Part shown: positions 20,939 to 37,963 of the stretch, piece by piece
Layout of the letters: each line of letters opens with the position of its first letter
Numbering within the stretch: the stretch's first letter is position 1
Assembly: GCF_009451885.1 (NCBI RefSeq)
Contig: NZ_WIAO01000007.1
Coordinates: 1 to 64,000, forward strand
Reading direction: 5' to 3'
DNA from: Glycomyces albidus
Lineage (GTDB): Bacteria > Actinomycetota > Actinomycetes > Mycobacteriales > Micromonosporaceae
Length of the DNA stretch: 64,000 nucleotides
Position numbers and translations under genes: made by a program
The notes under the pieces: generated by a model
Told to the model about the DNA's origin: nothing
What the model saw: the letters and a program-made list of their open reading frames with translations, nothing else
Databases searched by the model: none

Positions 20939-23900
20939 ATGTTGGATTTCCGAATACTCGGTCCGCTCGAAGTCCGCACATCGCTCGGCCCGACGGCGAT
21001 CAGCGGCCGCCACCACCCCAGACTCCTCGCCGTCCTGCTCGACGAGGCGAACCGGACCGTCCCGGTCGACCGGCTCGTCGAGGCCCTCTGGGGCACCCGG
21101 CCGCCGACCACCGCCGTCAGGCAGGTGCAGAACATCGCAGTCGCGCTGCGCCGCCAGCTCGGACCCGCCGGCGCCCGGCTCGAGAAGACCGACTCGGGCT
21201 ACCTCATGCGCATCGGGACGGACGAACTCGACGCGCTCCGCTGCGAGCGCAGCGCGTCCGAAGCGCGCCGCCATCGCGCCGCCGGGCTGCTGGTCGAAGC
21301 CGAAGCGGCATACGGCGACGCGCTCGCCGAATGGCGCGGGCCCTCGCTCGCCGGACTCGCCGGCAGGGCGCTGGAGCAGGCGGCCCGGCGCCTCGACGAC
21401 CTCCGGCTCACCCTCACCGAAGAACGCGTCGACATCGGACTGGAACTCGGACGGCACGAGTCGCTCGTGAGCGAACTCCAGCGGCTGCGGACCGAGCACC
21501 CCTACCGCCAGCGCCTGGCCGAGCAGCACATGCTCGCGCTGTACCGGAGCGGACGCGGGCCCGAGGCGCTCCGCGTGTTCGCGGAGGTCTGCGACCGCCT
21601 TGCCGACGAGCTCGGCACGGACCCCGGCAAGTCCCTGCGCGACCTGCACACCGCCATCCTCAGGGAGGACCCCGCGCTCGACGCCGCCGCGGCACCGGGA
21701 CCGTCCGCGCCGGTCACCCTCCCCACCGGGACCGCCGCCTTCACCGGCCGCGGCGACGCGCTCGCGGCCCTCGACGAGTCGGTGCAGGCCGCCACGCCGT
21801 TCGTCGTCCTCGCCGGGCCGGGCGGGATCGGGAAGACGGTGCTCGCCCTCCACTGGGCGCATCGGGCCGCGGACCGGTTCCCCGGCGGCAGGCTCTACAT
21901 CGACCTGCGGGGGTTCGCCCCGAACGCCGCGGCCGTGACACCGACCGAAGCGGTCCGGCAGCTCCTCGGCGCACTCGGGGTCGAATCGCGCCGGATCCCG
22001 GCCGACGCCGCCGCCCAGATCGGCTTCTACCACAACGTCATCGGTAGTGAACGCCGGCTGCTGATCCTCGACAACGCCCGGGACGCGGCCCAGATCCGCC
22101 CGCTCCTGCCGAACTCGCCGCTGGTCCACACGGTGGTGATCAGCCGCAGCAGGCTCGTGGGGCTCGCCGCCTCCCACGGCGCGCGCATCGTCGAACTCGG
22201 CACGTTCACCCCGTCCGAGGCCGCCGACCTGCTCCGCCGCCAGCTCGGCGACGAGCGGCCCGGTGCCGAACCCGAAGCGGTGGAGAGCATCCTCGCCGCG
22301 TGCGCCGGACTGGCGCTGGCGCTGGCGATCACCGCCGCCCGTGCGGCGACCCGTCCCGACCATCCGCTCGCCGCCATCGCCGACGAGCTGGAGACCTCCC
22401 GCCTCGACGCGCTCACGGGGGACGAGGCCGCCGCGGACCTCCGCGCGGTGTTCTCGTGGTCGTACCGCGCCCTCGACTCGGACGCCGCGCGGCTCTTCCG
22501 CCGCCTCGCGCTGACTCCGGGCCCGGACTTCACCTTGGACAGCGTCATCCCGCTCAACGGCGGCGCGCGCGGTGAGACCCTCCAGGCGCTGCGCCGGCTC
22601 GTCGACGCCCACCTGGTCGAACACGGGCGCCCGGGCCGGTACCGGCTGCACGACCTCGTCCGCCTCTACGCCGCCGAGCTGCTGTACTTCGAAGAGCCGC
22701 AGCCGGATCGGGACGCCGCCGCGACGCGGCTCCTCGACTGGTACCTCAGCGGCGCTCGCGCGTGCAGGTCGCTCCTGTGCCCCGAGGAGGTCAGCCTTCC
22801 CGGGCCCGGCGGCACCGGCGAGGCGCCGTTCACGACCGCCGCCGAGGCCGCCGACTGGCTCAGAGCCGAATGGGGCAACCTCGTCGCGGCCGTCGAGTTC
22901 GCCGCCCGGGACGGGAAGCACGCGACCGCCTGGCGGCTCGCCGACATGCTCCGCGGGCATGTGTGGCTCGGCATGCTGGGCGGTGACGGGCTGCGCCTGG
23001 GGCGGGCGGCCCTCGCCGCGGCCGAAGCGGCCGGCGACGTGTCCGGTCTCGCCGCCGCCGAGCTCGTCATGGCCTGCGCCCTGATCCGGTCGAACCGCAC
23101 CGGCGAGTCCACTGCGCACGGTCTCGCCGCCGCCGCGCACGCCCGGCGGAGCGGCTGGACCGCAGGCGCCGCGGCCGCCGAGTTCAACCTCGGCGCCGGG
23201 GCGTTCTACCGGGGACGCATGCGCGAAGGACTGCGCCACCTCGACGCCGCGCTCCGCGACAACCGGGCCGTCGGCGAGCGGCACGCCGAATGCACGAATC
23301 TGCACTGGCTCGGCATCCTGCACGCCCTCCTCGGGGACCTCGACGTCGGCGTCTCCTTCTTCCACCAGGCGCTGGAGGTCGCCGGCGACATCGGCGCCGA
23401 CTCGGCGAAACCCGTGCTGCTCATCCACATGGCCGAGATCGAGCTCTTCCGCGGCAGGCCCGAGGAGGCCGCCGCCCGCCTCGCCGCGGCCGCCGAACTC
23501 GAACGCGCGGGACCCGGCTACGACAAATCCGGCGACCTTCACGGGGCCACCGCGCGGCTGCGGCTCGCCGAAGGCGATGTCGCAGCCGCCCTGGACCTGT
23601 CGAGACGCGTGGTGGAGACCAGGACCGACGCGGCCGACCACCGGATCCGGACCCACGCGACGGTCACCCTGGCGGCCGCGAACGACGCCGCAGGCGAACA
23701 CGAGGCGGCGATCGCGCTGTACGACCAGGCACTCGCGATGACCGAACAGGACGCCACCGGCTTCCATCGCGTCGAGGCCCTCGTCGGGCGCGCGGGCGCG
23801 CTGCTGCGGAGCGGCCGCACCGAGCGCGCCCGCGATGCGGCGGCGCAGGCGCTCGAAGCGGCCGAGGCGGGGGAGTACCGGTTCCTGGAAGCACAGGCGC

Positions 23901-24052
23901 ACACCCGGATCGGAGAAGCCGAGCTCGCGATGGGACGACCGGAGGCCGCCACGGCGTCGGCTTGGCGGGCCCTGGAACTGTGCAAGGAGACCGGCCACCG
24001 GCCGGGCGAACCGCCGGCACGGCGCCTCCTCGCCGCGGCGGAACCGCGCTGA
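20939..24052 (+). CDS. AfsR/SARP-type regulator with NB-ARC and TPR domains
   Basis: This 1037-residue protein has AAGGAGG 7 nt before the ATG. Residues 1-95 are the OmpR-like SARP DNA-binding domain (starting DFRILGPLEV), 100-245 the BTAD helical domain, about 265-560 an NB-ARC/STAND ATPase with Walker A GPGGIGKT at 293-300 and a ISRSRL motif, and 600-1037 TPR-like repeats. This is the AfsR layout known to integrate signals into secondary metabolism in Streptomyces. SARP proteins bind direct heptamer repeats and recruit RNA polymerase. The target may be the glycoconjugate locus that follows, but this is inference from position only. Confidence 0.92.
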   Translation: MLDFRILGPLEVRTSLGPTAISGRHHPRLLAVLLDEANRTVPVDRLVEALWGTRPPTTAVRQVQNIAVALRRQLGPAGARLEKTDSGYLMRIGTDELDALRCERSASEARRHRAAGLLVEAEAAYGDALAEWRGPSLAGLAGRALEQAARRLDDLRLTLTEERVDIGLELGRHESLVSELQRLRTEHPYRQRLAEQHMLALYRSGRGPEALRVFAEVCDRLADELGTDPGKSLRDLHTAILREDPALDAAAAPGPSAPVTLPTGTAAFTGRGDALAALDESVQAATPFVVLAGPGGIGKTVLALHWAHRAADRFPGGRLYIDLRGFAPNAAAVTPTEAVRQLLGALGVESRRIPADAAAQIGFYHNVIGSERRLLILDNARDAAQIRPLLPNSPLVHTVVISRSRLVGLAASHGARIVELGTFTPSEAADLLRRQLGDERPGAEPEAVESILAACAGLALALAITAARAATRPDHPLAAIADELETSRLDALTGDEAAADLRAVFSWSYRALDSDAARLFRRLALTPGPDFTLDSVIPLNGGARGETLQALRRLVDAHLVEHGRPGRYRLHDLVRLYAAELLYFEEPQPDRDAAATRLLDWYLSGARACRSLLCPEEVSLPGPGGTGEAPFTTAAEAADWLRAEWGNLVAAVEFAARDGKHATAWRLADMLRGHVWLGMLGGDGLRLGRAALAAAEAAGDVSGLAAAELVMACALIRSNRTGESTAHGLAAAAHARRSGWTAGAAAAEFNLGAGAFYRGRMREGLRHLDAALRDNRAVGERHAECTNLHWLGILHALLGDLDVGVSFFHQALEVAGDIGADSAKPVLLIHMAEIELFRGRPEEAAARLAAAAELERAGPGYDKSGDLHGATARLRLAEGDVAAALDLSRRVVETRTDAADHRIRTHATVTLAAANDAAGEHEAAIALYDQALAMTEQDATGFHRVEALVGRAGALLRSGRTERARDAAAQALEAAEAGEYRFLEAQAHTRIGEAELAMGRPEAATASAWRALELCKETGHRPGEPPARRLLAAAEPR

Positions 24053-24835: not shown

Positions 24836-25822
24836 ATGACGACGCAGCTTCCCTGGTCGGTGGTCGTCCCCTGCCACAACGCGGCCAAGACCCTCGACCG
24901 GTGCCTCGCGGCACTCGCCGCGCAGACCGCGGCCCCGGCCGAGGTCATCGTGGTCGACGACGCCAGCACCGACGACACCGCCGCGATCGCCGAGCGGTTC
25001 CCCTGCCGCACCGTGAACATCCGCCCGAACCGCGGACCGGCGGCCGCGCGCAACACCGGAGCGGCAATCGCGACCGGACGCGTGCTCTTCTTCCTCGACG
25101 CCGACATCGAATTGCGCCCCGACGCGCTCGAAAACGCCGCCGCCGCGATCGCGGCCCCCGGAACGGGCATGGTCCAAGGCGTCTACGACGCCGATCCGAT
25201 GATCGACGACGGACCGGTCGAACGCTACAAGACCCTCTTCGAGCACCAATGGCGCACCGGATCGGCGGGCGCCACCGACGTCACCCTGTTCGCGCTCACC
25301 GCCATCCGCGCCGAGGTCTTCACCGCCGCCGGCGGCTTCGACGAGACGCTCCGCTCCGGTGAAGACGTCGAGTTCGGCTCCCGCCTTCCCGCCGGGTGGA
25401 CCGTCATCACCGACCCGACCGTCGTCGGCCGCCACGACGACGTCGACCGGCTCGGCCCGCTCCTCATCGAACAGTGGCGCCGCTCCCTCCGATTCGCCGA
25501 ACTCCTCGCCCGCGCCCGCCGCGCCCCCGCCGCCGGCAACACCGTCCGGACCGGCGCCTACGGACCGGCCGCCGTCCTCGCCGCCGGCGCGATCGCCGCC
25601 AGCGCCCCCCTCGCGCTCTGGCAGCCCTGGCTCGCGGCCGTCCCGGCCCTCTTCGCGATCGCGTTCGGCATCGCCAGCGCCCCGCTCGTCGCCGCCGCGG
25701 CGGCCCGCAGCCTCCGGTGGGCCGCCGCGGTCTACGCCCTGCACCTGCTCTACGTCGGCACCGCCGGCCTCGCGAGCCTCGTCGGCGCCCTGCGCCCCGC
25801 GGTCTGGAGGCCCCGGCCGTGA
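24836..25822 (+). CDS. Family 2 glycosyltransferase with C-terminal membrane helices
   Basis: This 328-residue protein starts at the ATG at 24836; no ribosome binding site is evident. The GT-A nucleotide-binding domain shows SVVVPCHNAAKTL near residues 8-20, VVDDASTDDT and the metal-binding FFLDADIE, then SGEDVEFG. The last about 90 residues hold three or four hydrophobic helices, so it is membrane-bound and probably uses a polyprenyl-linked or lipid acceptor. Its stop overlaps the next gene by GTGA, giving a coupled pair with the flippase-like protein. It resembles the minus-strand GT2 at 32421, perhaps a paralogue in the same pathway. Confidence 0.87.
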   Translation: MTTQLPWSVVVPCHNAAKTLDRCLAALAAQTAAPAEVIVVDDASTDDTAAIAERFPCRTVNIRPNRGPAAARNTGAAIATGRVLFFLDADIELRPDALENAAAAIAAPGTGMVQGVYDADPMIDDGPVERYKTLFEHQWRTGSAGATDVTLFALTAIRAEVFTAAGGFDETLRSGEDVEFGSRLPAGWTVITDPTVVGRHDDVDRLGPLLIEQWRRSLRFAELLARARRAPAAGNTVRTGAYGPAAVLAAGAIAASAPLALWQPWLAAVPALFAIAFGIASAPLVAAAAARSLRWAAAVYALHLLYVGTAGLASLVGALRPAVWRPRP

Positions 25823-26775
25823 AGCGGATCCTCTGGCGGCTCTCCGGCATCGCCGTCGTCATCGCCGTCGCGATCGCCGTCGCCGCGGCCATGCGCGGCC
25901 AGGACTGGAGCCAGGCCCTCGACTTCGCCACCGGCGAGCACCTGCCGCAGATCGCGCTCGCCGCCCTCGTCAACCTCGCCGGACTCGTCCTCGGCATGCT
26001 CGCCTGGCGCGCCCTCGTGAACGGCACCGGAGCACCGGTCCCCCTGCGCGACAGCGCGAACATCTACTTCACCGGGATGCTCGTCAAATACCTTCCCGGG
26101 CGCCTGTGGACCCTCCTGGTCAACGTGCGCATGGGCGCCGGCGTCGGCGTCGGCACCGCCCGCATGGCCGGCGTGTACGTCATCAACATCGCCGTCATGC
26201 TCAGCACCGGGATGCTCGCGGGCCTCCTCGCCGCCCCGGCCGCCCTCGGGAACCGCGGCTGGTGGGTGCTCCTCGCCGCCCTGCCCGCGCTCGTGCTCTT
26301 CGCCCGTCCGGCACTGGTGAACACCGCCGCGGCCCTCATGATGCGCCTCTTCCGCAGGGCCGCACCGCGACTGGCCTACACGGACCGGGCGATCCGGGCT
26401 TCCCTCGCCTACCAGGCGGTCTCGTGGCTCGTCGCCGGGCACCACCTGTGGCTGCTCGCGGTCGCCGCCGGAGCGCCCCCGGCCCGCTCCTACCTGTTGT
26501 GCGTGGGACTGTTCGGCCTGGCCCTCGTGATCGGCTCGCTCGTGGTCGTCGTGCCGGACGGCCTCGGCGTCCGGGAGGGGATCCTCGTGGCGGCCCTGGC
26601 GCTGGTGCTGCCCCTGCCCATGGCCGGCGCCGTGGCGGTGACGAGCCGCGCGGTGGCCACACTCGGGGAGGTCGGCGCCGCGCTGGCGGTCTACGCGCTG
26701 GCGGCCCGGGCCCGCCGCAAGCGGGCCCGGGCCGGCGTTCAGGAGCCGGCGGCCTCGGCGAGCACCGCCGCGTAG
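25819..26775 (+). CDS. Lysylphosphatidylglycerol synthetase TM-region/flippase-like membrane protein
   Basis: This 318-residue protein starts at the GTG at 25819, with GGAGG 8 nt upstream and a 4-nt overlap with the GT2 gene. It has about eight hydrophobic helices. The signature YFTGMLVKYLPGRLWTLL near residues 77-94 and the VVVPDGLGVREGIL motif match the AglD/MprF-flippase superfamily (formerly UPF0104), which lacks the synthase domain. Such proteins are thought to move lipid-linked sugars or phospholipids across the membrane. The last 37 nt overlap the convergent GT4 gene. Confidence 0.85.
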   Translation: MKRILWRLSGIAVVIAVAIAVAAAMRGQDWSQALDFATGEHLPQIALAALVNLAGLVLGMLAWRALVNGTGAPVPLRDSANIYFTGMLVKYLPGRLWTLLVNVRMGAGVGVGTARMAGVYVINIAVMLSTGMLAGLLAAPAALGNRGWWVLLAALPALVLFARPALVNTAAALMMRLFRRAAPRLAYTDRAIRASLAYQAVSWLVAGHHLWLLAVAAGAPPARSYLLCVGLFGLALVIGSLVVVVPDGLGVREGILVAALALVLPLPMAGAVAVTSRAVATLGEVGAALAVYALAARARRKRARAGVQEPAASASTAA

Positions 26776-27860
26776 GACGCCAGTGTGGACTCCCGGCCGA
26801 ACGAGGCCGACGCGCTCGCCGCTCCGGCCGCCCGCCGCCCGGCCGGGTACCCGCACACGCGCCGCAGGGCCTCCCGGATCCCGTCGGCGTCTCCGGCCTC
26901 GACGAGTTCGCCGAATCCGGTGGTCTGCAAGGGCACCCGCATGCCGGGCAGGTCCGAGGCGACGACCGGCACCCCGGACATCATCGCCTCGGTCTGGGTG
27001 ATCCCGAAGGACTCCTCGGCGACCGACGGGAGCGCGAAGGCGTCGAGCGACGCGTGGAAGTCCGCGATGTCGGGCTCGTCGAGCCGGCCGAGGAACCGGA
27101 TGCGGTCGTCGCCCGCGGCGAGGCGCCGCAACCGGGCGACCACGTCGCCTCCCGCGACGCCCTCGTCTCCGGCGAGGAGCAGCCGCGCCGACGGATCGTC
27201 CCAGCCCCGGAACGCCTGCACGAGGTGGTGCAGGCCCTTCTCGGGGGCCATGCGGCCGAGGAACCCGACGTGCGGTCCGGGGCCGTCGCGGAACGCCGGC
27301 GTCCCGGGTTCGCGGCGCTCGCACGGCGGCGGGATGGCGCACACCCGCCGCTGCTCCATGATGGGCCAGTGCCGGGACGCCTTGGCGTGGTCGGTGTTCG
27401 CCACGACCACGGCCGTCGAGCGGCGCAGCGCGGCGGCCACGGAGTACTCCACGACGGCGATCTGCGCCCCGGCCGTGACGCCTCCGGAGAGCCACACGTC
27501 GTCGTGGTGGTGCGCCACGATCGGAGTGCCGCGCGCACCGCGCGCGACGAGCCCCGCCTCGAGCATCGGCAGGTGCAGGTTGACCACTTCAGACCGGCGC
27601 GCGATGCGGCCGGCGAGGGCCGCGAACCCGGGGCTGACGACGCCGCGGCCGATGCGCGCGGCCACGGGCGCCCGGTAGACGTCGACGCCGCCGCGCCGCT
27701 CGAACCGCGGGAGCGAGCGGTCGTGCCTGGAGGCGACGGCCGCCACGCGCATCCCCCGGGCGGCCAGGGACTCGGCGACCTCGACCGCGACCTTGGTGAG
27801 TCCGCTCGTGTAGGGGGCGTAGTAGTTGAGCACGACGCACGCGTCGTATCGGCGGTTCAC
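26739..27860 (-). CDS. Family 4 glycosyltransferase (GT-B)
   Basis: This 373-residue protein has a two-Rossmann GT-B fold. The N-terminal half has NYYAPYTSGLTKVAVEVAES, and the C-terminal half has VGFLGRMAPEKGLHHLVQAF and the retaining-enzyme motif ALPSVAEESFGITQTEAMMSG with the conserved E-x7-E acidic pair. No membrane helix is present, so it acts at the cytoplasmic face. It is the last gene of the six-gene operon, 9 nt after the EEP gene. Confidence 0.9.
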   Translation of the reverse strand: MNRRYDACVVLNYYAPYTSGLTKVAVEVAESLAARGMRVAAVASRHDRSLPRFERRGGVDVYRAPVAARIGRGVVSPGFAALAGRIARRSEVVNLHLPMLEAGLVARGARGTPIVAHHHDDVWLSGGVTAGAQIAVVEYSVAAALRRSTAVVVANTDHAKASRHWPIMEQRRVCAIPPPCERREPGTPAFRDGPGPHVGFLGRMAPEKGLHHLVQAFRGWDDPSARLLLAGDEGVAGGDVVARLRRLAAGDDRIRFLGRLDEPDIADFHASLDAFALPSVAEESFGITQTEAMMSGVPVVASDLPGMRVPLQTTGFGELVEAGDADGIREALRRVCGYPAGRRAAGAASASASFGRESTLASYAAVLAEAAGS

Positions 27861-27869
27861 CGCGGCCTC

Positions 27870-29009
27870 CTAGCGGATGTCGAGTCCGACGGTCTGGGCG
27901 TCGTGGTCCGACAGCCCTTCGCCGGAGACGATCTCGTAGTGGGTGACCTCCAGGCCCTCGCTGGTGCAGACCCAGTCGAGCCGCCACCATTTGGGGAACG
28001 GGAACCGGATCGCGGGCCAGCTCACCGGCATCGCCGAGTCGGGGTCGGGGCATTCGAGACGGTCCCTCATGGACGCGATCCCGGCGCTGAGGATGGTCGA
28101 GTTGAAGTCGCCGCCGACGAACACGGGATTGGGGTTGGCGTCGATGTCCTCGTTGAGGATCGTGAACTGGGAGCTGCGCCGCTGGTACTGGGCGCGCACG
28201 TACTCGTAGAACTCGCCGCTGAGCGGTGACGCCTCGCCGGTGGGGACCGGCACCGAGAGGTGCAGGTTGTACATGGAGACGATCTGTCCGTCGACGTCGA
28301 GGTCGGTGCGGAGGATCTTGGTGGTCCAGTACTCGCGCCACGGGTCGTCGGCGGGAGGAGCGCCGGGGTCGTCCTCGTCGATGAGGGCTTCGGTGTCGAG
28401 GGCCTTGGACTCCACGACCGGGTACCTGGAGAGGGTGACCATCTCGCTGGCGATGACGAGCTCGTAGTCGGGGAAGTGCTCGCGCAGGGCCGCCTCGTCG
28501 TCGATGATCTCGACCCGGTCGGTGCGGGTGAGGTACTCGGTGAGCAGGTAGACGTCGGCGTCCTGCTCGAGCAGGTAGTCGTAGAACGCGTCGGCGTCGT
28601 CCCAGCGGTAGTGCCAGTAGTCGGCGTTCCAGGTGAACACTTCGAGGTCGGCGGCGCCGTCGTCGCCGCCGCCGGTGACCAGGGCCGAGAGGTTCAGGCC
28701 GGCGATCGGGTAGGCGATGGCGAGGAGCGCCGCGTGGACGGTCCACAGCCGCCACCGGATCCCGCGCCGGATCCGGACGGCGCACAGGCCGAGCAGGAGG
28801 GGCGGCACCAGGAGCGCGAACGGCGGGACCATCTCGATGAGCGACCACCACCAGACCCGTCCGCTGAGGACCAGGTGCGCCAGCAGGAAGAGCGCCCAGA
28901 AGGCGGTGGTGCCGACGGCGAGGCGGACGCCGAGGCGCCGGCGCCGCGGCTCGGTCGCCGCGTCCGGTTCCGGATTCGTCTCCGGCTCGCGGTTCTCGGT
29001 GAGGCTCAT
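27870..29009 (-). CDS. Membrane-anchored EEP phosphatase (VanJ-like)
   Basis: This 379-residue protein starts at the ATG at 29009, preceded by AAGGAG. Three hydrophobic helices lie at about residues 29-50, 57-77 and 88-108. An endonuclease/exonuclease/phosphatase domain follows: LEVFTWNADYWHY near 122-134, VYLLTEYL, VSMYNLHL, FVGGDFNST and the terminal SDHDAQTV motif carrying the catalytic Asp-His. This topology matches VanJ-type proteins, which dephosphorylate polyprenyl diphosphates outside the membrane. Next to a polyprenyl-phosphate transferase it could remove a phosphate from a lipid-linked intermediate, but DNA-type substrates cannot be excluded. Confidence 0.8.
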   Translation of the reverse strand: MSLTENREPETNPEPDAATEPRRRRLGVRLAVGTTAFWALFLLAHLVLSGRVWWWSLIEMVPPFALLVPPLLLGLCAVRIRRGIRWRLWTVHAALLAIAYPIAGLNLSALVTGGGDDGAADLEVFTWNADYWHYRWDDADAFYDYLLEQDADVYLLTEYLTRTDRVEIIDDEAALREHFPDYELVIASEMVTLSRYPVVESKALDTEALIDEDDPGAPPADDPWREYWTTKILRTDLDVDGQIVSMYNLHLSVPVPTGEASPLSGEFYEYVRAQYQRRSSQFTILNEDIDANPNPVFVGGDFNSTILSAGIASMRDRLECPDPDSAMPVSWPAIRFPFPKWWRLDWVCTSEGLEVTHYEIVSGEGLSDHDAQTVGLDIR

Positions 29010-29017
29010 GGTCTCCT

Positions 29018-29962
29018 TCAATCGTTGGGGTAGAGGACGGAAAGGTCGAGCAGCGTGGTGGCGGCGATGCACGCGAGGCAGGCCGCGCCGATGGCGAGGA
29101 GCACGGGGTCGCGGACGAGGAGCCGCGTGGGGTCGCCGTCGCCGCCGCGCAGCTCGAGCCGCTGGAGGTAGCGGAACAGGGCCATGAGCAGCAGCGGCAC
29201 CACCAGCATCGCCAGCGGCCCCTTGGACTCGGCCGCCTGCGGCCCGCCGAGGGCGAACAGCAGGAACGTGGCGGTGGCGAGGCCGCCGGCGATGGAGGTG
29301 AACTGCTCGAGGAGGGGCGCGGTGTAGCCCTTGAGGGCCGCCCGGTGGGCGGCGCCGGCCACCACGATCTCTCTGCGGCGCTTGCCGAGCACGAGCAGCA
29401 GCGACAGGAACAGGACCGAGAGCACGACCAGGTTCGCCGGCGCGGTGTCGAGCACGACGTATCCGGCGAGCGCCCGCAGGGGGAACCCGGCCGCGACGGC
29501 GAACAGCTCCAGCACCGGGACCTCCCTGAGCCCCCGGCTGTAGGCGAGGTTGAGTCCGATGTAGGCGGTGATCGGGACGAGCAGCAGCGGGTCGGCGGCG
29601 GCCGCGAGGGCGGCCGAGCCGGCGCCGCAGGCGACGGCGACGAGCACCGCTCCCCGCACGCTGACGGCCCCGGAGGCGAGCGGCCGGAACCGCTTGACCG
29701 GGTGGTGCCGGTCGCGGAACCGGTCGGCGATGTCGTTGACGGCGTACACGAGCGAGGACGCGAGCATGAACGCCGCCACCGCGAGCGCGGGGCCGGCGAG
29801 CGTGGCGCGGTCCCACACCTGCGGGTCGAGGAACGGCAGCAGGACCGCGACGTTCTTGACCCACTGGCGCGGCCGCGCCAGTGCGACCGCGGCCGCCGCG
29901 GTGCGGAGGTTAGGCGTCCGAGGGTCGGCCGGGGACAGCTCCCCGGTCTTGAGGCTGGTCAT
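29018..29962 (-). CDS. UbiA-family polyprenyl-phosphate phosphoribosyltransferase-like protein
   Basis: This 314-residue protein starts at the ATG at 29962, inside the upstream epimerase gene (53-nt overlap). About nine hydrophobic helices carry the UbiA catalytic motif NDIADRFRD at residues 76-84, followed by HHPVKRFRPLASG, and an N-terminal ARPRQWVKNVAVLLP. These match the branch containing decaprenyl-phosphate phosphoribosyltransferase, which moves phosphoribose from PRPP to a polyprenyl phosphate on the way to arabinogalactan precursors. DprE1 and the classical phosphatase are not in this operon, so this copy probably serves a different glycolipid. Confidence 0.87.
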   Translation of the reverse strand: MTSLKTGELSPADPRTPNLRTAAAAVALARPRQWVKNVAVLLPFLDPQVWDRATLAGPALAVAAFMLASSLVYAVNDIADRFRDRHHPVKRFRPLASGAVSVRGAVLVAVACGAGSAALAAAADPLLLVPITAYIGLNLAYSRGLREVPVLELFAVAAGFPLRALAGYVVLDTAPANLVVLSVLFLSLLLVLGKRRREIVVAGAAHRAALKGYTAPLLEQFTSIAGGLATATFLLFALGGPQAAESKGPLAMLVVPLLLMALFRYLQRLELRGGDGDPTRLLVRDPVLLAIGAACLACIAATTLLDLSVLYPND

Positions 29963-31025
29963 GGCGGCGCTCCTGCGGTCGTGCGGGCGGGAAGAGGATC
30001 TTGGCGCCGGCGAGCATGCCCTGGCGCCACCGGTCCGAGCTGGTGGCGCCGGCGGCGCCGCGCGGGGCCTGGGGCCGTTCCCGCCACCAGCGGAACGTGC
30101 GCAGGATCGCGTCACGGTTGCTGTGCTCGGGATGGAACCCGAGCCGCTCGGCGGCCTTGCTGATGTCCACATAGGAATCTGCTTTGAGCTTGCGCACCAG
30201 CCGGTCGTAGACGGGGGAGAGCCCGAGCGCCGAGGCCGCGCGTAGCAGCGCGATCGCGGGCGCGGCGGGGACGGACCGGATCCGCCGGCCGCGGCCGACC
30301 TCGTCGAGGACGACCTGGAAGTCCTCGCGGAGCGTCCCGAACTCGGCCGCGCCGATGTTGTAGGTGTCGGCCGCCGCGTCCTCGGGTGCGGCGAGCACCA
30401 TGCGCACGGCCCGGGCGAGGTCGTCGAGATCGAGCATCTGGACGCGCACGTCGCCTTTGCCGATGACCGGGAAGTCGCGGCCCTCCTCGGCCCACTCGAA
30501 CAGCATCCCGAACAGCCCCAGGCGGCCGGGCCCGAGGAAGGTCTTGGGCCGCACCACGGTCACGCACCGGTCGGCCCGGTGGGGGACCACCAGCGCCTCG
30601 GCCTCGGCCTTGGCGGCGCTGTAGGCGTCGACCGGCTCGTGCGGGTGGTCCTCGGGGGTGGGCACGAGCGACGGCAGCCCGTACACGGCGGTGGAGGAGA
30701 TGTGGACGACGCGGCCGACTCCGGACTTCGCGGCTGCGGCGGTCATCGACCGGGCGCCGTCGACGATGATCGACCGGATGTCGGCCTTCGGGTACGACGG
30801 CAGCGCCGACGCGCAGTGGACGACGGCGTCGCAGCCGTCGGCCGCCTCGCTCAGCGCGGTCTCGTCGCGCACGTCGCCGGTGACGACCGTGAGGCCCGCG
30901 GCGGGCGGGAGCTCGCGCAGGTCGTAGCCGACCACGTGAGTGCCGTCCGCGAGGAGGTCGGCGGTCACGCGCGAGCCGAGGACCCCGGCGGCGCCGGTGA
31001 CGAGGACGCGGGAAGGCGCGGTCAC
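29910..31025 (-). CDS. Extended SDR: NAD-dependent epimerase/dehydratase
   Basis: This 371-residue protein starts at the GTG at 31025, overlapping the aminotransferase stop by GTGA. The Rossmann motif TGAAGVLGSR lies near residues 9-18, the catalytic HISSTAVYGLP block near 115-125, and YSAAKAEAE supplies the Tyr-x3-Lys pair. Sugar-nucleotide epimerases and oxidoreductases of this class oxidise a hydroxyl to a keto group, which would create the substrate for the neighbouring aminotransferase. The C-terminal 70 residues beyond the usual fold are basic and overlap the UbiA start. Confidence 0.87.
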   Translation of the reverse strand: MTAPSRVLVTGAAGVLGSRVTADLLADGTHVVGYDLRELPPAAGLTVVTGDVRDETALSEAADGCDAVVHCASALPSYPKADIRSIIVDGARSMTAAAAKSGVGRVVHISSTAVYGLPSLVPTPEDHPHEPVDAYSAAKAEAEALVVPHRADRCVTVVRPKTFLGPGRLGLFGMLFEWAEEGRDFPVIGKGDVRVQMLDLDDLARAVRMVLAAPEDAAADTYNIGAAEFGTLREDFQVVLDEVGRGRRIRSVPAAPAIALLRAASALGLSPVYDRLVRKLKADSYVDISKAAERLGFHPEHSNRDAILRTFRWWRERPQAPRGAAGATSSDRWRQGMLAGAKILFPPARPQERRHDQPQDRGAVPGRPSDA

Positions 31026-32434
31026 CACAGGCTGCTCACCTTCTGGGCCACGAAGCGGCGCACGAGCCGCCCGAGCCCGGCCGAGAGGGTCTCCTCGATC
31101 GCGGCCAGGCAGCGGTGCACCTCGTCGAGCGGTGTCACCAGGGGCGGCCCGATCACGACCGGATGCTCCCCGTTGAGCGTGTAGTACAGGTAGATCCCGT
31201 GGTCCTCGTACATGGCCTGGAGGAACGCCGACGACAGCAGCTTCTGCCGGAAGCCGGGGTCCTTGGCGAGCCCGCCGGGCACCAGTTTCACCAGCGTCTC
31301 TACAAGGGACGGACGACCTTGGAGGAACAGCCCCCACAGGGCGCCCGCGCCGCGCACGTCCGCGACCTCGTCCGGGAAGGCCTTCGCGATCCGGTCGAGC
31401 CCCGGGGAGAGCACCGCCTCGATCGCACGGGCCCTCGCCGGGTAGTCGTCCTCGATCGCGATCTTCACGGCCTCGATCGCGGTCGCGCACTCCTCGCCGA
31501 ACCCGTAGTACGTGGTGCTCGTGGTCTGGAGCAGCGCGTCGCCGAGGTTGTCGTACGCCCGGCGGTAGATCCGGTTGCGCACCACGAACCCGGAGATCGA
31601 GGACTTGCCGCCCCCGAGCGCCTTCGAGGTGCACAGGATGTCGGGGACCGCGCCCTCGTGGCGCATGAAGTGGAACAGGCTGCCGGTCTTGCCCCACCCG
31701 GTGTAGATCTCGTCGTAGATCAGGACGATGTCCTCGCGGTCGCACAGCGCGCGCAGCCCCTGCAGGAACTCCTCGGAGCACTGGCCCATCGTGGAGGCGC
31801 TGAACGGCTCGACCAGCAGCGCGTACACGTCGCCGGGGTGCGCGGCCACGGCCCGTTCGACCGATTCGAGGTCGTCGTAGACGAAGTCGTCGATGCCCGG
31901 GATCGTCGGGAACCGGAACCCGTGGCCCTGGGCCGCGGTGAGCCCGCCCGAGCCGAGCAGCTTCCCGTGGAACGCCGAGGTGGCGCGCAGGACCGTGTTC
32001 CGCTTGCCGCCGTGGTACTTGTAGGCGCACTTGACCGCGCCTTCGATCGCCTCCGCCCCCGAGTTCGGGAAGAACGAGTGGTCGAGGTCTTCGGGCAGGA
32101 CCTCGGCGAGGTTGTGGCTCAGCGCGGCGAGGTACGGGGAGAAGAAGGTCTTGTGGACCTCCATGCGGCCCCGCTCGGCGAAGCGGCGCCGCGCCTCGAG
32201 GATCCGCGGGTGGTTGTGGCCGTGGTTGAGCACCCCGACGCCGCCGGTGAGGTCGGTGATCCGGCGTCCGTCCTTGAGGTGCAGGTAGCAGCCCTCGGCG
32301 CGCGCCACGAGGTCGCGGCCGAAGCCGAACGAGGTCATGAGCGAGACCTGGCTGCTGTTGATGTATCGCCGGTAGAGCTTTTGGACCTCCTTGAGGTCCA
32401 TCGCCTCGGCTTCGTCGATGTCAATGAGTCGCAT
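31022..32434 (-). CDS. Class III (PLP) aminotransferase
   Basis: This 470-residue fold-type I enzyme has PNSGAEAIEGAVK at about residues 123-135, the Asp of YDEIYTGWGKTG (241) that contacts the pyridine nitrogen, and the PLP lysine Lys271 in TSKALGGGKSS. N-terminal and C-terminal family blocks are complete, including LNHGHNHP. Family members aminate omega-amino acids, sugars or aldehydes. Its 4-nt overlap with the epimerase argues for a shared pathway, in which the epimerase would make a keto group and this enzyme would aminate it. It overlaps the GT2 gene end by 14 nt. Confidence 0.9.
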   Translation of the reverse strand: MRLIDIDEAEAMDLKEVQKLYRRYINSSQVSLMTSFGFGRDLVARAEGCYLHLKDGRRITDLTGGVGVLNHGHNHPRILEARRRFAERGRMEVHKTFFSPYLAALSHNLAEVLPEDLDHSFFPNSGAEAIEGAVKCAYKYHGGKRNTVLRATSAFHGKLLGSGGLTAAQGHGFRFPTIPGIDDFVYDDLESVERAVAAHPGDVYALLVEPFSASTMGQCSEEFLQGLRALCDREDIVLIYDEIYTGWGKTGSLFHFMRHEGAVPDILCTSKALGGGKSSISGFVVRNRIYRRAYDNLGDALLQTTSTTYYGFGEECATAIEAVKIAIEDDYPARARAIEAVLSPGLDRIAKAFPDEVADVRGAGALWGLFLQGRPSLVETLVKLVPGGLAKDPGFRQKLLSSAFLQAMYEDHGIYLYYTLNGEHPVVIGPPLVTPLDEVHRCLAAIEETLSAGLGRLVRRFVAQKVSSLW

Positions 32435-33455
32435 GGGATTCGCTCCTGAAGAGAGGAATGGGGGAAGGCGCGCGGCGGCGCGCCAGGGGGATGCCGGCCG
32501 CGATGCCGCAGACCAGGACCGCCGTGAAGCACAGGTGCACCGCGGCCAGCGGCACGGTCCGCGCGGGGCCGAGGTGGCGGCCCGCGTAGCCGAGCATCCG
32601 CGCGTCGGCGGCCAGCACCGCCAGGACCGCCGCGGCGGTGACGAGCAGCGCCTCCGGCGCGACGGCCGCGACCGGCAGCGACGCGAGTGCGACCGCGGCC
32701 GCGACGAGCGACCGCATCCGGTTGATGCGTTCCAGCCGCACTCCCCGCGGATGCAGCGCCGGCAGCGGCAGCGACCGCTTCCACTGGGTCCGCAGGGCCC
32801 GCAGCAGGGTCGAGCCCGCGTCGTGGCTACCCGCCACGGACTCGGTGATGAGGATCGAGGACCGGCCGGCCATCCGCGCCGAGTACTCCACGTCCTCGCA
32901 GTCGCGCAGCCGCTCGTCCAACGGCCCGAACCGGTCGAGCACCGAGCGGCGCACGGCCGCGACCGCGAACACGACCACGTTGGCCGGGCCGGCGAAGCGG
33001 TGGCGCCAGAACGCCTCCCGCAGCACGAGGTAGCACTCCACAGTGCTCCGGCCGCGCATCGGCAGCGGCTCGTACGTGCCGTGCACGATGTCCAGGCCCG
33101 GGTCCGCCGCGAGCAGCGCCACCGCCCGCTCGACCGCGTCGGGGCGCAACGCCACGTCGGAGTCGACGAAGAACAGGATCTCCCCGCGCGCCGCGGCGAT
33201 GCCGGCGTTGCGGGCCCCTGACGGACCGAGATTGCGCTCCAGCCGGATCACGGTGCAGCCGTGCTCGGCGGCGATGTCCGCCGAGCCGTCGGTGCCGGCG
33301 TCGTCGACGACGATGATCTCGTCGGGCGCTCTGGTCTGCGCCCGCAGCGCTGCGAGGCACTCGCGGAGCGTCGCGGCCGCGTCGTGGCAGGGGATGACCA
33401 CGCTGACGAGCGGTGGCGCGCCTCCGGGAGGCGGATCGGGGCGGTCTCGGTCCAT
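32421..33455 (-). CDS. Family 2 glycosyltransferase, first gene of glycoconjugate operon
   Basis: This 344-residue protein has a GT-A domain with VSVVIPCHDAAATL near residues 17-30, IIVVDDAGTDGS, FFVDSDVALRP and the CEDVEYS motif. The C-terminal 100 residues include several hydrophobic helices. It is closely related in layout to the plus-strand GT2 at 24836. The gene opens a six-cistron minus-strand operon with every junction overlapping or within 10 nt. A TTGGTAC-rich stretch lies upstream, but no clear promoter was identified. Confidence 0.88.
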   Translation of the reverse strand: MDRDRPDPPPGGAPPLVSVVIPCHDAAATLRECLAALRAQTRAPDEIIVVDDAGTDGSADIAAEHGCTVIRLERNLGPSGARNAGIAAARGEILFFVDSDVALRPDAVERAVALLAADPGLDIVHGTYEPLPMRGRSTVECYLVLREAFWRHRFAGPANVVVFAVAAVRRSVLDRFGPLDERLRDCEDVEYSARMAGRSSILITESVAGSHDAGSTLLRALRTQWKRSLPLPALHPRGVRLERINRMRSLVAAAVALASLPVAAVAPEALLVTAAAVLAVLAADARMLGYAGRHLGPARTVPLAAVHLCFTAVLVCGIAAGIPLARRRAPSPIPLFRSESHATH

Positions 33456-33643: not shown

Positions 33644-34624
33644 TCACGCCGCCGCGAGCCGCTCGTACACCTCGGCGTCGAGCCCGATCGACGCCGCCCC
33701 GAGCGCCTCCTCCAGCTGGCCCGTGCTGCTCACCCCGAGGATCGGCACGACGTCGGCCGGACCCGACGCCAGCCACGCCAGCGCGAGCTGGTTCGCCGTG
33801 ACGCCGAGCGCCGCGGCCTCCTCGCGCAGCACTGTGATCCGGCGCTGCGAGCCCTCGTGGTCGTAGTCCACAGGCGCACCGGGCGGCCTGCGGTCCGGTC
33901 GCGAGAACGCCCCGCCCGACAGCGGCGAGTACGCGAACAGCGGCAGGCCCTCGCTCACGGCGTAGTCGAGCATCTCGTCGCCCGCCGCGAGCTGGATCGA
34001 CTCGGGCACCGGCACGCGCAGCGGTCGCGGGAACAGATACGTGTGCCGCTGCTGCACCGCCTGGTACGCCGCCCGTCCGGCGCCGGCGGCCGCCGCCCGG
34101 GCCCGCTCCAGCCGCCACACCGCGTGGTTGCTGGCGCCGAGCACCCGGACCGAGCCGTCCTCGACCAGGCGCCCGAACGCGTCGACCGTCTCGTCCAGCG
34201 GCACCGACCGGTCGTCGGCGTGCGCGTAGTACAGGTCGACGACGTCGACCCCGAGCCGTTCGCGGCTGCGCGCGAACTGCTCCTCGATCACCTTCGGCGC
34301 CAAGCCCTCCCGGTTCCCCCCGTGGTACGGCTCGCCTGGGCGCGCCGGCGCGGCCCCGACCTTCGTGGCCACCCGCATCCGGCCGGACATGCCGCGCGAG
34401 GCGAGCCAGCGCCCGATGAGCGCCTCGCTCTCCTCACCGATGCCGCCTTCGGCCCAGAACGCGTAGCAGTTCGCGGTGTCGAGCAGGTCCCCGCCCGCCT
34501 CCGCGTACCGGTCGAGGATCGCGAACGCCTCGCGCTCCGCCACCGCGGTCCCGAAGTACATGGTGCCCAGGCAGAATCCGGCGGTCGTGAAACCCGCCTC
34601 ACCGCCGATCAGATACTGTCGCAT
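33644..34624 (-). CDS. Aldo/keto reductase
   Basis: This 326-residue TIM-barrel enzyme has the AKR tetrad visible: Asp and Tyr in LLDTANCYAFW near residues 47-57, Lys in VATKVG and His in LYYAHADD. The C-terminal NADPH-binding segment IPILGVSS-type reads VVPILGVSSTGQLEEAL. It probably reduces an aldehyde or ketone, or acts on a sugar. It starts 19 nt after the BTAD regulator on the same strand and is probably co-transcribed, suggesting regulation by that neighbour. Confidence 0.9.
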   Translation of the reverse strand: MRQYLIGGEAGFTTAGFCLGTMYFGTAVAEREAFAILDRYAEAGGDLLDTANCYAFWAEGGIGEESEALIGRWLASRGMSGRMRVATKVGAAPARPGEPYHGGNREGLAPKVIEEQFARSRERLGVDVVDLYYAHADDRSVPLDETVDAFGRLVEDGSVRVLGASNHAVWRLERARAAAAGAGRAAYQAVQQRHTYLFPRPLRVPVPESIQLAAGDEMLDYAVSEGLPLFAYSPLSGGAFSRPDRRPPGAPVDYDHEGSQRRITVLREEAAALGVTANQLALAWLASGPADVVPILGVSSTGQLEEALGAASIGLDAEVYERLAAA

Positions 34625-34643: not shown

Positions 34644-35450
34644 TCACCGCGGTTGCGCGGTGAGGGTGAGATGCTCGGTCCAGAGCTCGTCGCTGGGGCG
34701 GTCGGCCAGCAGGTCGGAGAACAGCTCCTGCGCCCGCTGCGACGGACCGATCCCCAAGTCCTCCTTGAGGAGCGACCGCAGGTCGTGGTAGGCCACGAGC
34801 GCCTCGCCGCGCCGGTCCTCCCGGGCGAGGCCCAGCATGAGGAGGATCCACAGCCGCTCGCGGAACGGATGCCTCCTGACCAGTGTGGACAGATCGGCGA
34901 GCGTGTCGCCGCCGGTGCCGGTGCGCAGTTGCAGCGCGAGCGAGGTCTCGAGCGCGTCGAGGCGCAGCTCGTCGAGGCGGCGCCGCTCCTGGGTCGCCAG
35001 GGGACCGGTCGCGCCGTGCAGCGCCTCGGAGCCCGACCAGTGCTCGAGGGCCCGGTCGAGGGCTTCCGCGGCCTGGTCGAGCCGTCCGGCCCAGAGCGCG
35101 GCCATCCCGGTGCGCCGGTCGGACTCGAACGCCTCCGTGTCGAGGGTGATGGCGGCCGGGTCGATGGAGTATCCGGGCCGCAGGGAGCGGAGCAGGCCGT
35201 GCTCCTCGGTGCTGCCGGTGCGGCGCCGCAGCCGGCTGATGTAGGTGTGGACGACGTTGACGGCGCTGGCGGGGGCGCCGTCGCCCCACAGGTCGGCGAT
35301 CAACTGGTCCACGAGGACGGGGGACCCGCGGCGGATGACGAGGATGCCGAAGCATTCCCGTTCTCGGGCGGGGCCGAGGTGGATCTGTTCGCCGTCGCGC
35401 GTCATGCCGATGGCGCCGAACAGGCGTACGGCGGTTTCAGGGGTTCTCAT
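34644..35450 (-). CDS. BTAD/SARP-type transcriptional regulator
   Basis: This 268-residue protein has the compact SARP layout without an ATPase. Residues 5-95 form an OmpR-like winged helix (RLFGAIGMTRDGE to VVHTYISRLRRR). Residues 100-250 form the bacterial transcriptional activation domain with HPFRERLWILLMLGL and EALVAYHDLRSLLKEDLG. It lies just upstream of the aldo/keto reductase in one transcript. An overlapping set of palindromes at 35634-35658 and a TAGGAT hexamer at 35669-35674 (minus strand) lie upstream and could form its promoter. Confidence 0.87.
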   Translation of the reverse strand: MRTPETAVRLFGAIGMTRDGEQIHLGPARERECFGILVIRRGSPVLVDQLIADLWGDGAPASAVNVVHTYISRLRRRTGSTEEHGLLRSLRPGYSIDPAAITLDTEAFESDRRTGMAALWAGRLDQAAEALDRALEHWSGSEALHGATGPLATQERRRLDELRLDALETSLALQLRTGTGGDTLADLSTLVRRHPFRERLWILLMLGLAREDRRGEALVAYHDLRSLLKEDLGIGPSQRAQELFSDLLADRPSDELWTEHLTLTAQPR

Positions 35451-37738: not shown

Positions 37739-37963
37739 CTACAGGGCCCATTGCCGGTCGGCGTCGGCCCGGCAGGTGGACTGCTGTCGGCGGGCACTGT
37801 CGGCGGTCGAGGCGCCGATGACCTCGATGCACTTGCCCCCGAGCGGCGGGCGACGAGCCACCCCGCGCACGCGATGACGAGGTGATGATCCACCTGAGAC
37901 CGACCGGGGATGTGCGGCGCGACGCTGGCGGCCACTGACGTCGAACCTCCGGAGGACCACACC

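Follow-up and report, generated by a model that had tools for sequence, protein, structure and literature searches.

A cluster of ten genes was analyzed in a 64,000-nucleotide stretch of Glycomyces albidus DNA (hereafter the window; contig NZ_WIAO01000007.1, positions 1 to 64,000), which is part of a 191-kb contig in a genome of 5.76 Mb. This conserved cluster of a soil actinobacterium probably directs the assembly, on a membrane lipid, of an amino sugar derived from ribose, as well as its extension and export. Eight of the genes, lying between 24836 and 33455, had been assigned to families in an earlier note on this DNA; all eight were present and open, both ends agreed, and Pfam returned matching families (in order: GT2, the flippase-like LPG_synthase_TM, GT4, Exo_endo_phos, UbiA, Epimerase, Aminotran_3 and GT2).

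Two of these genes lie on the plus strand. GT2a (24836–25822; PF00535, 4.1e-33) is a family 2 glycosyltransferase with C-terminal membrane helices, three of which were called by a hydropathy script, and it is kept in 6/6 Glycomyces-type loci. It overlaps by 4 bp the gene for the flippase-like membrane protein (25819–26775; PF03706, 41.1 bits, cut-off 33.4), whose end in turn overlaps the end of the GT4 gene by 37 bp. The minus-strand genes are, in order of position, the GT4 glycosyltransferase (26739–27860; PF13692 and PF00534, 0 membrane helices called), an enzyme of the endonuclease/exonuclease/phosphatase (EEP) fold with three N-terminal membrane helices (27870–29009; PF03372, 52.6 bits), a predicted UbiA-family polyprenyl-phosphate phosphoribosyltransferase of the decaprenylphosphoryl-5-phosphoribose (DPPR) synthase type (29018–29962; PF01040, 69.2 bits, cut-off 34.2), an NAD-dependent epimerase/oxidoreductase of the short-chain dehydrogenase/reductase (SDR) family (EPI, 29910–31025; PF01370, 8.8e-34), a class III aminotransferase of the pyridoxal phosphate (PLP) type (AT3, 31022–32434; PF00202, 215.5 bits), and a second glycosyltransferase of family 2, likewise with membrane helices at its C-terminus (GT2b, 32421–33455; PF00535, 5.7e-33; two helices called). 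Start codons of the EEP, UbiA and EPI genes were chosen by us.

The six minus-strand genes had been described as overlapping, which is correct at three of their five junctions (GT2b/AT3 by 14 bp, AT3/EPI by 4 bp and EPI/UbiA by 53 bp) and incorrect at the other two, where gaps of 8 bp (UbiA/EEP) and 9 bp (EEP/GT4) were present. Likewise, the ends first given are sound but the real block is larger: an aldo/keto reductase gene (33644–34624, minus strand; PF00248, 3.1e-53) and a SARP-type regulator gene (Trans_reg_C and BTAD domains; 34644–35450, minus strand; PF03704, 6.9e-34) prolong the minus-strand run to 35450, bringing the block to ten genes. No GT-C transferase was found by Pfam among the ten encoded proteins.

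The cluster is strongly conserved, far beyond Glycomyces. A UbiA search of genome contigs returned nine loci with the closest matches in Glycomyces, and all ten genes were present in the nearest six, of which five are Glycomyces and one is an actinomycete bin. The aldo/keto reductase and SARP genes stood beside the block in the same order in 6/6 other Glycomyces-type loci, and at one such locus (L009; locus numbers are ours) the second GT2 gene was inverted. EPI was matched in 32 of 101 family-level genomes at 35 places (E up to 1e-70), not counting two loci with no adjoining EPI (L120 and L122) and two from the phylum-level search (L125 and L126). UbiA was found at all 35, the flippase-like gene at 33, GT2 at 33, EEP at 32, AT3 at 28, SARP at 24, GT4 at 16 and the aldo/keto reductase at 7. 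The earlier note had held that a non-conserved block would speak against its proposal; instead, UbiA accompanies EPI at every place and the other core genes do so at 28 to 33. Some of the gaps fall at loci whose contigs end inside the stretch (L114, lacking EEP, the flippase-like gene and GT2; L123, lacking EEP; L165, lacking the flippase-like gene); the contigs of L166 (lacking EEP) and L115 (lacking GT2) do not end there.

AT3 was matched in 26 of the 101 family-level genomes, at 30 places with 57–100% identity (E up to 1e-100), and in 3 of 396 phylum-level genomes, its own included; its occurrence is therefore patchy. Given that the searches scored only part of the first-look candidates (four per genome for AT3 at phylum level, at most 16 for AT3 at family level and at most 19 for EPI), the counts of genomes lacking a match should be read as maxima. 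Wherever AT3 and EPI occurred together as neighbors (28/28), they were on the same strand with a gap of −6 to 68 bp. EPI adjoined AT3 at 28 of the 30 AT3 places and AT3 was absent from 7 of the 35 EPI places, so the linkage is asymmetric, AT3 being found without EPI less often than EPI without AT3. The seven EPI–UbiA loci without AT3 (L162–L168) form a sister cluster type with GT4 and SARP in 7/7. A common SDR gene was also observed in six of these seven.

Among 40 AT3-type or near-relative loci, AT3 was present at 40, UbiA and the flippase-like gene at 39 each, EPI, EEP and GT2 at 38 each, SARP at 24, GT4 and the aldo/keto reductase at 15 each, a deacetylase at 13, and GT87 and a methyltransferase at 12 each; in this set L116 and L120 overlap, the aminotransferase of L044 is only 32% identical, and L046 and L097, whose contigs have the lengths of those of L008 and L007, were not added. 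For comparison, eight loci with ordinary DPPR-synthase UbiAs were picked by us from those of an order-level search. DprE1 and DprE2 occurred at four of them, and no match to EPI, AT3, EEP or the flippase-like protein was found at any of the eight. Chance clustering was rejected on the linkage at the 35 EPI places and the 40 AT3-type loci.

The first enzyme of the block very probably transfers phosphoribose to polyprenyl phosphate, judging from its sequence. The only PDB matches to UbiA up to E 0.001 were 8j8j and 8j8k, both Rv3806c (best E 3.3e-33). Eleven residues of Rv3806c that bind phosphoribosyl pyrophosphate (PRPP) or Mg were taken from the available text of PMC10994848, and eight are identical in the window UbiA, with the other three conservatively replaced (Q135N, K143R and Y157F). 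Y70, N73, D77, R90 and Y138 were identical in 40/40 cluster UbiA rows. In a tree of 79 rows the window UbiA fell among DPPR-synthase-type enzymes, and a search of its own genome with the window UbiA returned no second UbiA of this type. The phylogenetic grouping proposed in the earlier note thus holds, with PDB match, PRPP residues and tree in agreement. On the same three lines the identity of UbiA as an ordinary prenyltransferase was rejected, although the attachment of the genome's other UbiAs is unreliable on account of long branches.

EPI carries the GxxGxxG and YxxxK motifs of SDR enzymes; G11, G14, G17, S110, Y135 and K139 do not vary across 25 rows, among them three haloarchaeal proteins and one rhizobial protein (41% identity). 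Within the best ten of 611 plasmid-collection records matching EPI, nine had a DPPR-type UbiA inside the fetched stretch; the tenth, from Mesorhizobium AR07, was accompanied by transposons, with no UbiA in the stretch. Three annotated haloarchaeal loci combine UbiA and an EPI relative with a PHP-domain protein, a flippase-like protein and an annotated DolP-mannose mannosyltransferase. In rhizobia, the direct neighbor of UbiA is a more distant SDR (27%), and the nearer EPI relative lies about 5 kb away from UbiA, next to genes for an SMR transporter and a GMC oxidoreductase. In the available text of PMC11127046, Citrobacter youngae O2 had ribose in place of xylose in its side chain once the SDR gene ORF13 was deleted; the authors of that work infer that the SDR works on a lipid-linked sugar. 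Because relatives of EPI lie near UbiAs in haloarchaea and rhizobia, and because of this published deletion, the UbiA product is the likely EPI substrate. The proposal of the earlier note that the SDR follows UbiA is supported on these grounds, and EPI probably acts on the phosphoribosyl lipid.

Two sets of plasmid genes were observed in the course of these searches. On haloarchaeal plasmids (L058, L060, L062 and L159), a DPPR-type UbiA is found together with an EPI-like SDR, a GT-C-like transferase and a protein with a PHP domain, and a flippase-like protein is annotated in three of them; this set is possibly a pentofuranose system in archaea. The symbiotic plasmid pNGR234a (L059, 7845–15910) carries, near nodU and nodS, a HAD-UbiA, two SDRs, an SMR transporter and a GMC oxidoreductase.

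The third enzyme, AT3, retains its PLP lysine K271 in 40/40 rows, and at 163 of its 470 positions no more than one of these rows deviated. An Arg before the PPL motif is the carboxylate contact in class III aminotransferases, though not universally. At this position (427) AT3 has V, I or M, and never Arg, in 40/40 rows; YgjG has Arg there (where the alignment scores low), and the five other class III proteins of the genome have Arg in two cases, V in one and K in one, with one unaligned. The missing Arg hints at an unusual donor or substrate.

Relatives of AT3 outside the cluster were also considered. On a Neorhizobium plasmid (L176, 5635–11380) a HAD-UbiA, a DprE1-like oxidase (348.8 bits; model cut-off 500), an SDR (25% to EPI) and a class III aminotransferase (32.5% to AT3) stand in a row. 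An AT3 orthologue in Embleya (54.5%) is found with an ArnC/PgfS-like GT2 (below the cut-offs of those models), a DegT aminotransferase and a GMC oxidoreductase (L175, 8371–16906), a context that fits action of AT3 on lipid-linked sugars yet differs from that of the block. Relatives of the Neorhizobium aminotransferase in Thioclava and Streptomyces BHT-5-2 (34–36%) have no UbiA match nearby, and that of Thioclava sits among acyl-carrier-protein and ketosynthase genes; the wider subfamily therefore has other uses. No relatives of AT3 were returned by a search of viral contigs. Taking the gene linkage as the basis, we give an even chance to AT3 aminating a keto-sugar on the lipid.

The alternative that fares best, although we consider it rather unlikely, is that the SDR only epimerizes, so that the lipid carries xylofuranose or arabinofuranose, and that this product is further decorated with an amine or amino acid made separately by AT3. 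It is favored by the Citrobacter deletion described above, by the occurrence of EPI without AT3 at 7/35 family-level places and in haloarchaea, and by the named enzymes closest to AT3, which are PigE and putrescine aminotransferase. It is opposed by the tight adjacency of AT3 and EPI at 28/28 places and by the Neorhizobium locus with UbiA and a DprE1-like oxidase, where a class III aminotransferase again comes after an SDR.

In the EEP enzyme, residues N128, E158, H250, D301, N303 and D345 were invariant in 21 rows, and by hydropathy three helices precede the catalytic domain. Topology was scored with our own hydropathy and charge script, which under-calls helices, on 43 orthologues, 18 of which did not have exactly three called helices and were left unscored; the positive-charge pattern placed the EEP domain outside in 25/25 scorable orthologues. 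We consider it likely from this pattern that the domain lies outside the cell. Zero helices were called in EPI and AT3. A single-sequence PDB search with the EEP protein gave no matches to E 0.1, and a profile search gave weak EEP-family matches only. A structural model of moderate confidence (predicted local distance difference test, pLDDT, 65.9) had neutral sphingomyelinase (8j2f) as its best fold match, followed mainly by Tdp2 and APE1; the folds closest to it are thus of phosphodiesterases and nucleases. The EEP fold is common to phosphatases; given this and query TM-scores of about 0.40–0.47, the match is unspecific and no substrate was drawn from it.

The earlier note had the EEP enzyme remove the phosphate from the lipid before the epimerase acts, a step that is probably misplaced given the outside topology. 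A cytoplasmic EEP acting as a 5-phosphatase ahead of EPI, which would be compatible with the other steps proposed here, is in our view unlikely: a phosphatase-like gene or domain does lie beside such UbiAs elsewhere (PHP domain, HAD domain) and EEP is kept at 32/35 places, but the charge pattern of every scorable orthologue (25 of 43) is against it, and EPI and AT3, in which no helix was called, depend on cofactors of the cytoplasm. If EEP is outside, C5 may keep its phosphate during oxidation and amination, which would exclude C5 and favor amination at C2 or C3.

The pathway that we propose would then run as follows. UbiA, with strong sequence support, would move 5-phosphoribose from PRPP onto polyprenyl phosphate at the cytoplasmic face. 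The SDR, to judge from its family and linkage, may oxidize a ring hydroxyl (C2 or C3) to a keto group in an epimerase-like manner, and AT3, from its linkage, may aminate this group to give a polyprenyl-phosphate amino-pentose. The GT4 and GT2 enzymes would attach further sugars, one of which the aldo/keto reductase may adjust, and the LPG_TM protein would flip the product outward. Outside, as its topology suggests, EEP would remove the 5-phosphate or cut the lipid phosphate and so release the sugar. The order UbiA, SDR, aminotransferase given in the earlier note is thus well backed by gene linkage, and the place given there to EEP is probably wrong.

That this SARP-linked cluster builds an amino-pentose glycan on polyprenyl phosphate has, in our estimate, about the same chance of being right as wrong. 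Since the block encodes no GT-C, a simple sugar donor is a less likely product than an extended glycan linked to lipid, and the product may be a secreted glycan, to which we give somewhat less than even weight. Similarly tentative is the broader reading in which the PRPP-derived pentose is oxidized and aminated on polyprenyl phosphate by a dedicated AT3 subfamily, extended, flipped and released outside by EEP in the making of a so far undescribed class of actinobacterial specialized metabolites; both the Embleya AT3 beside an ArnC/PgfS-like synthase and the 32.5% relative in the Neorhizobium locus fit such a subfamily.

Several findings weigh against the pathway as proposed. The cluster UbiAs were not resolved as one clade in the tree (support 11/0), and the three other UbiAs of the genome sat on branches of 8.8–10, two outside the group and one weakly inside, a placement flagged as unsafe. 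The window UbiA fell below the cut-off of its best model, the NCBIfam equivalog NF008978 (187.7 vs 207 bits), for which reason it is placed in the wider DPPR-type group and not called an equivalog, and only 6 helices were called in it against nine expected for the family, by the same under-calling script on which the EEP topology depends. EPI and AT3 were each below the cut-off of every one of the 25 best NCBIfam families shown, the named enzymes nearest to AT3 are not sugar enzymes, and the AlphaFold model of AT3 failed (pLDDT 35.7). AT3 also occurs without an adjoining EPI at L120 and L122, which are second copies in genomes that each hold another AT3 adjoining EPI and UbiA. No match to UbiA or EPI lies within 12 kb of the Embleya orthologue, and Streptomyces SAT1 has EPI, UbiA, EEP and flippase-like genes with a nearby AT3 match that is only 32% and partial.

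The use of the flipped lipid may also be other than a released glycan. In an envelope decoration of the three-component type, the flipped lipid-linked pentose would be the substrate of a GT-C enzyme whose gene lies at another place in the genome; GT87 matches at 10 of the 28 AT3–EPI places and two GT87 genes on other contigs of the own genome agree with this, but the lack of a GT-C among the ten block proteins, together with SARP at 24/35 places and the patchy AT3, which point to specialized metabolism, makes it doubtful. Least probable is that UbiA phosphoribosylates or prenylates a small-molecule acceptor to give an ordinary glycosylated metabolite with no lipid carrier, since, for all the diversity of UbiA enzymes and the frequent association of SARP regulators with secondary metabolism, the PRPP-site residues match those of Rv3806c and a flippase-like gene is kept at 33/35 places.

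Should the amino-pentose pathway be correct, the chemistry of the mycobacterial arabinose donor and of O-antigen pentofuranoses would have been reused for an amino-sugar glycan in specialized metabolism, and class III aminotransferases would gain a lipid-linked sugar as substrate. The pathway predicts a specific intermediate and marks clusters whose products could be sought by mass, AT3 being carried by roughly one in four of the family-level genomes searched. No described cluster or product of this kind was found among the open-license papers listed by literature searches, of which PMC11127046 alone was judged close to the UbiA–SDR pairing.

Three other genes of the window were recorded. A large regulator with BTAD, NB-ARC and TPR domains is encoded close to the block (20939–24052, plus strand). 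Farther away are an 859-aa protein in which a caspase domain (PF00656) is joined to an HSP70 domain (PF00012; 48384–50963, minus strand) and an 886-aa protein with a DNA/RNA non-specific endonuclease domain (PF13930) at its C-terminus (37910–40570, plus strand).

The nearest known systems are the three-component pentofuranose systems of Citrobacter youngae O1 and O2, as far as these are described in the available text of PMC11127046. In common with the block they have a UbiA-type polyprenyl phosphoribose synthase (assigned here by sequence), a phosphatase function, an SDR epimerase (in O2) and a flippase. For farnesyl-phosphate-ribose-5-phosphate, that paper reports m/z 513. They differ in using a fused HAD domain, a MATE flippase and a GT-C, where the block has a membrane EEP enzyme, an LPG_TM protein and no GT-C; the block adds a class III aminotransferase, a GT4 and a SARP, and no aminotransferase is reported in that portion of the source. 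The block would therefore work like a three-component system without being a member as defined, because its locus holds neither a MATE flippase nor a GT-C. The EEP protein, called VanJ-like in the earlier note, may also be set beside VanJ, a membrane protein that raises teicoplanin resistance according to the available text of PMC4790382; the comparison with VanJ/StaP is by description only, and here the gene lies within a biosynthetic block.

In the mycobacterial decaprenyl-phosphoryl-arabinose pathway the first enzyme is homologous (Rv3806c, with 8/11 PRPP-site residues identical), and the subsequent steps differ, DprE1/DprE2 being used there and a single SDR with an aminotransferase in the block. 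The earlier note remarked on the absence of these usual partners. For DprE1 no convincing match was found in the own genome, where the one search made, with a single distant DprE1 as query, yielded no more than a partial match (37 bits); no search for DprE2 was made in it. In the Arn pathway an amino-pentose is carried on undecaprenyl phosphate and a DegT-family enzyme aminates a nucleotide sugar. The likeness to the block lies in the amino-pentose on a polyprenyl phosphate that is proposed here, and the difference in the route to it, by a nucleotide sugar and a DegT enzyme in the one case and by a proposed class III amination on the lipid in the other.

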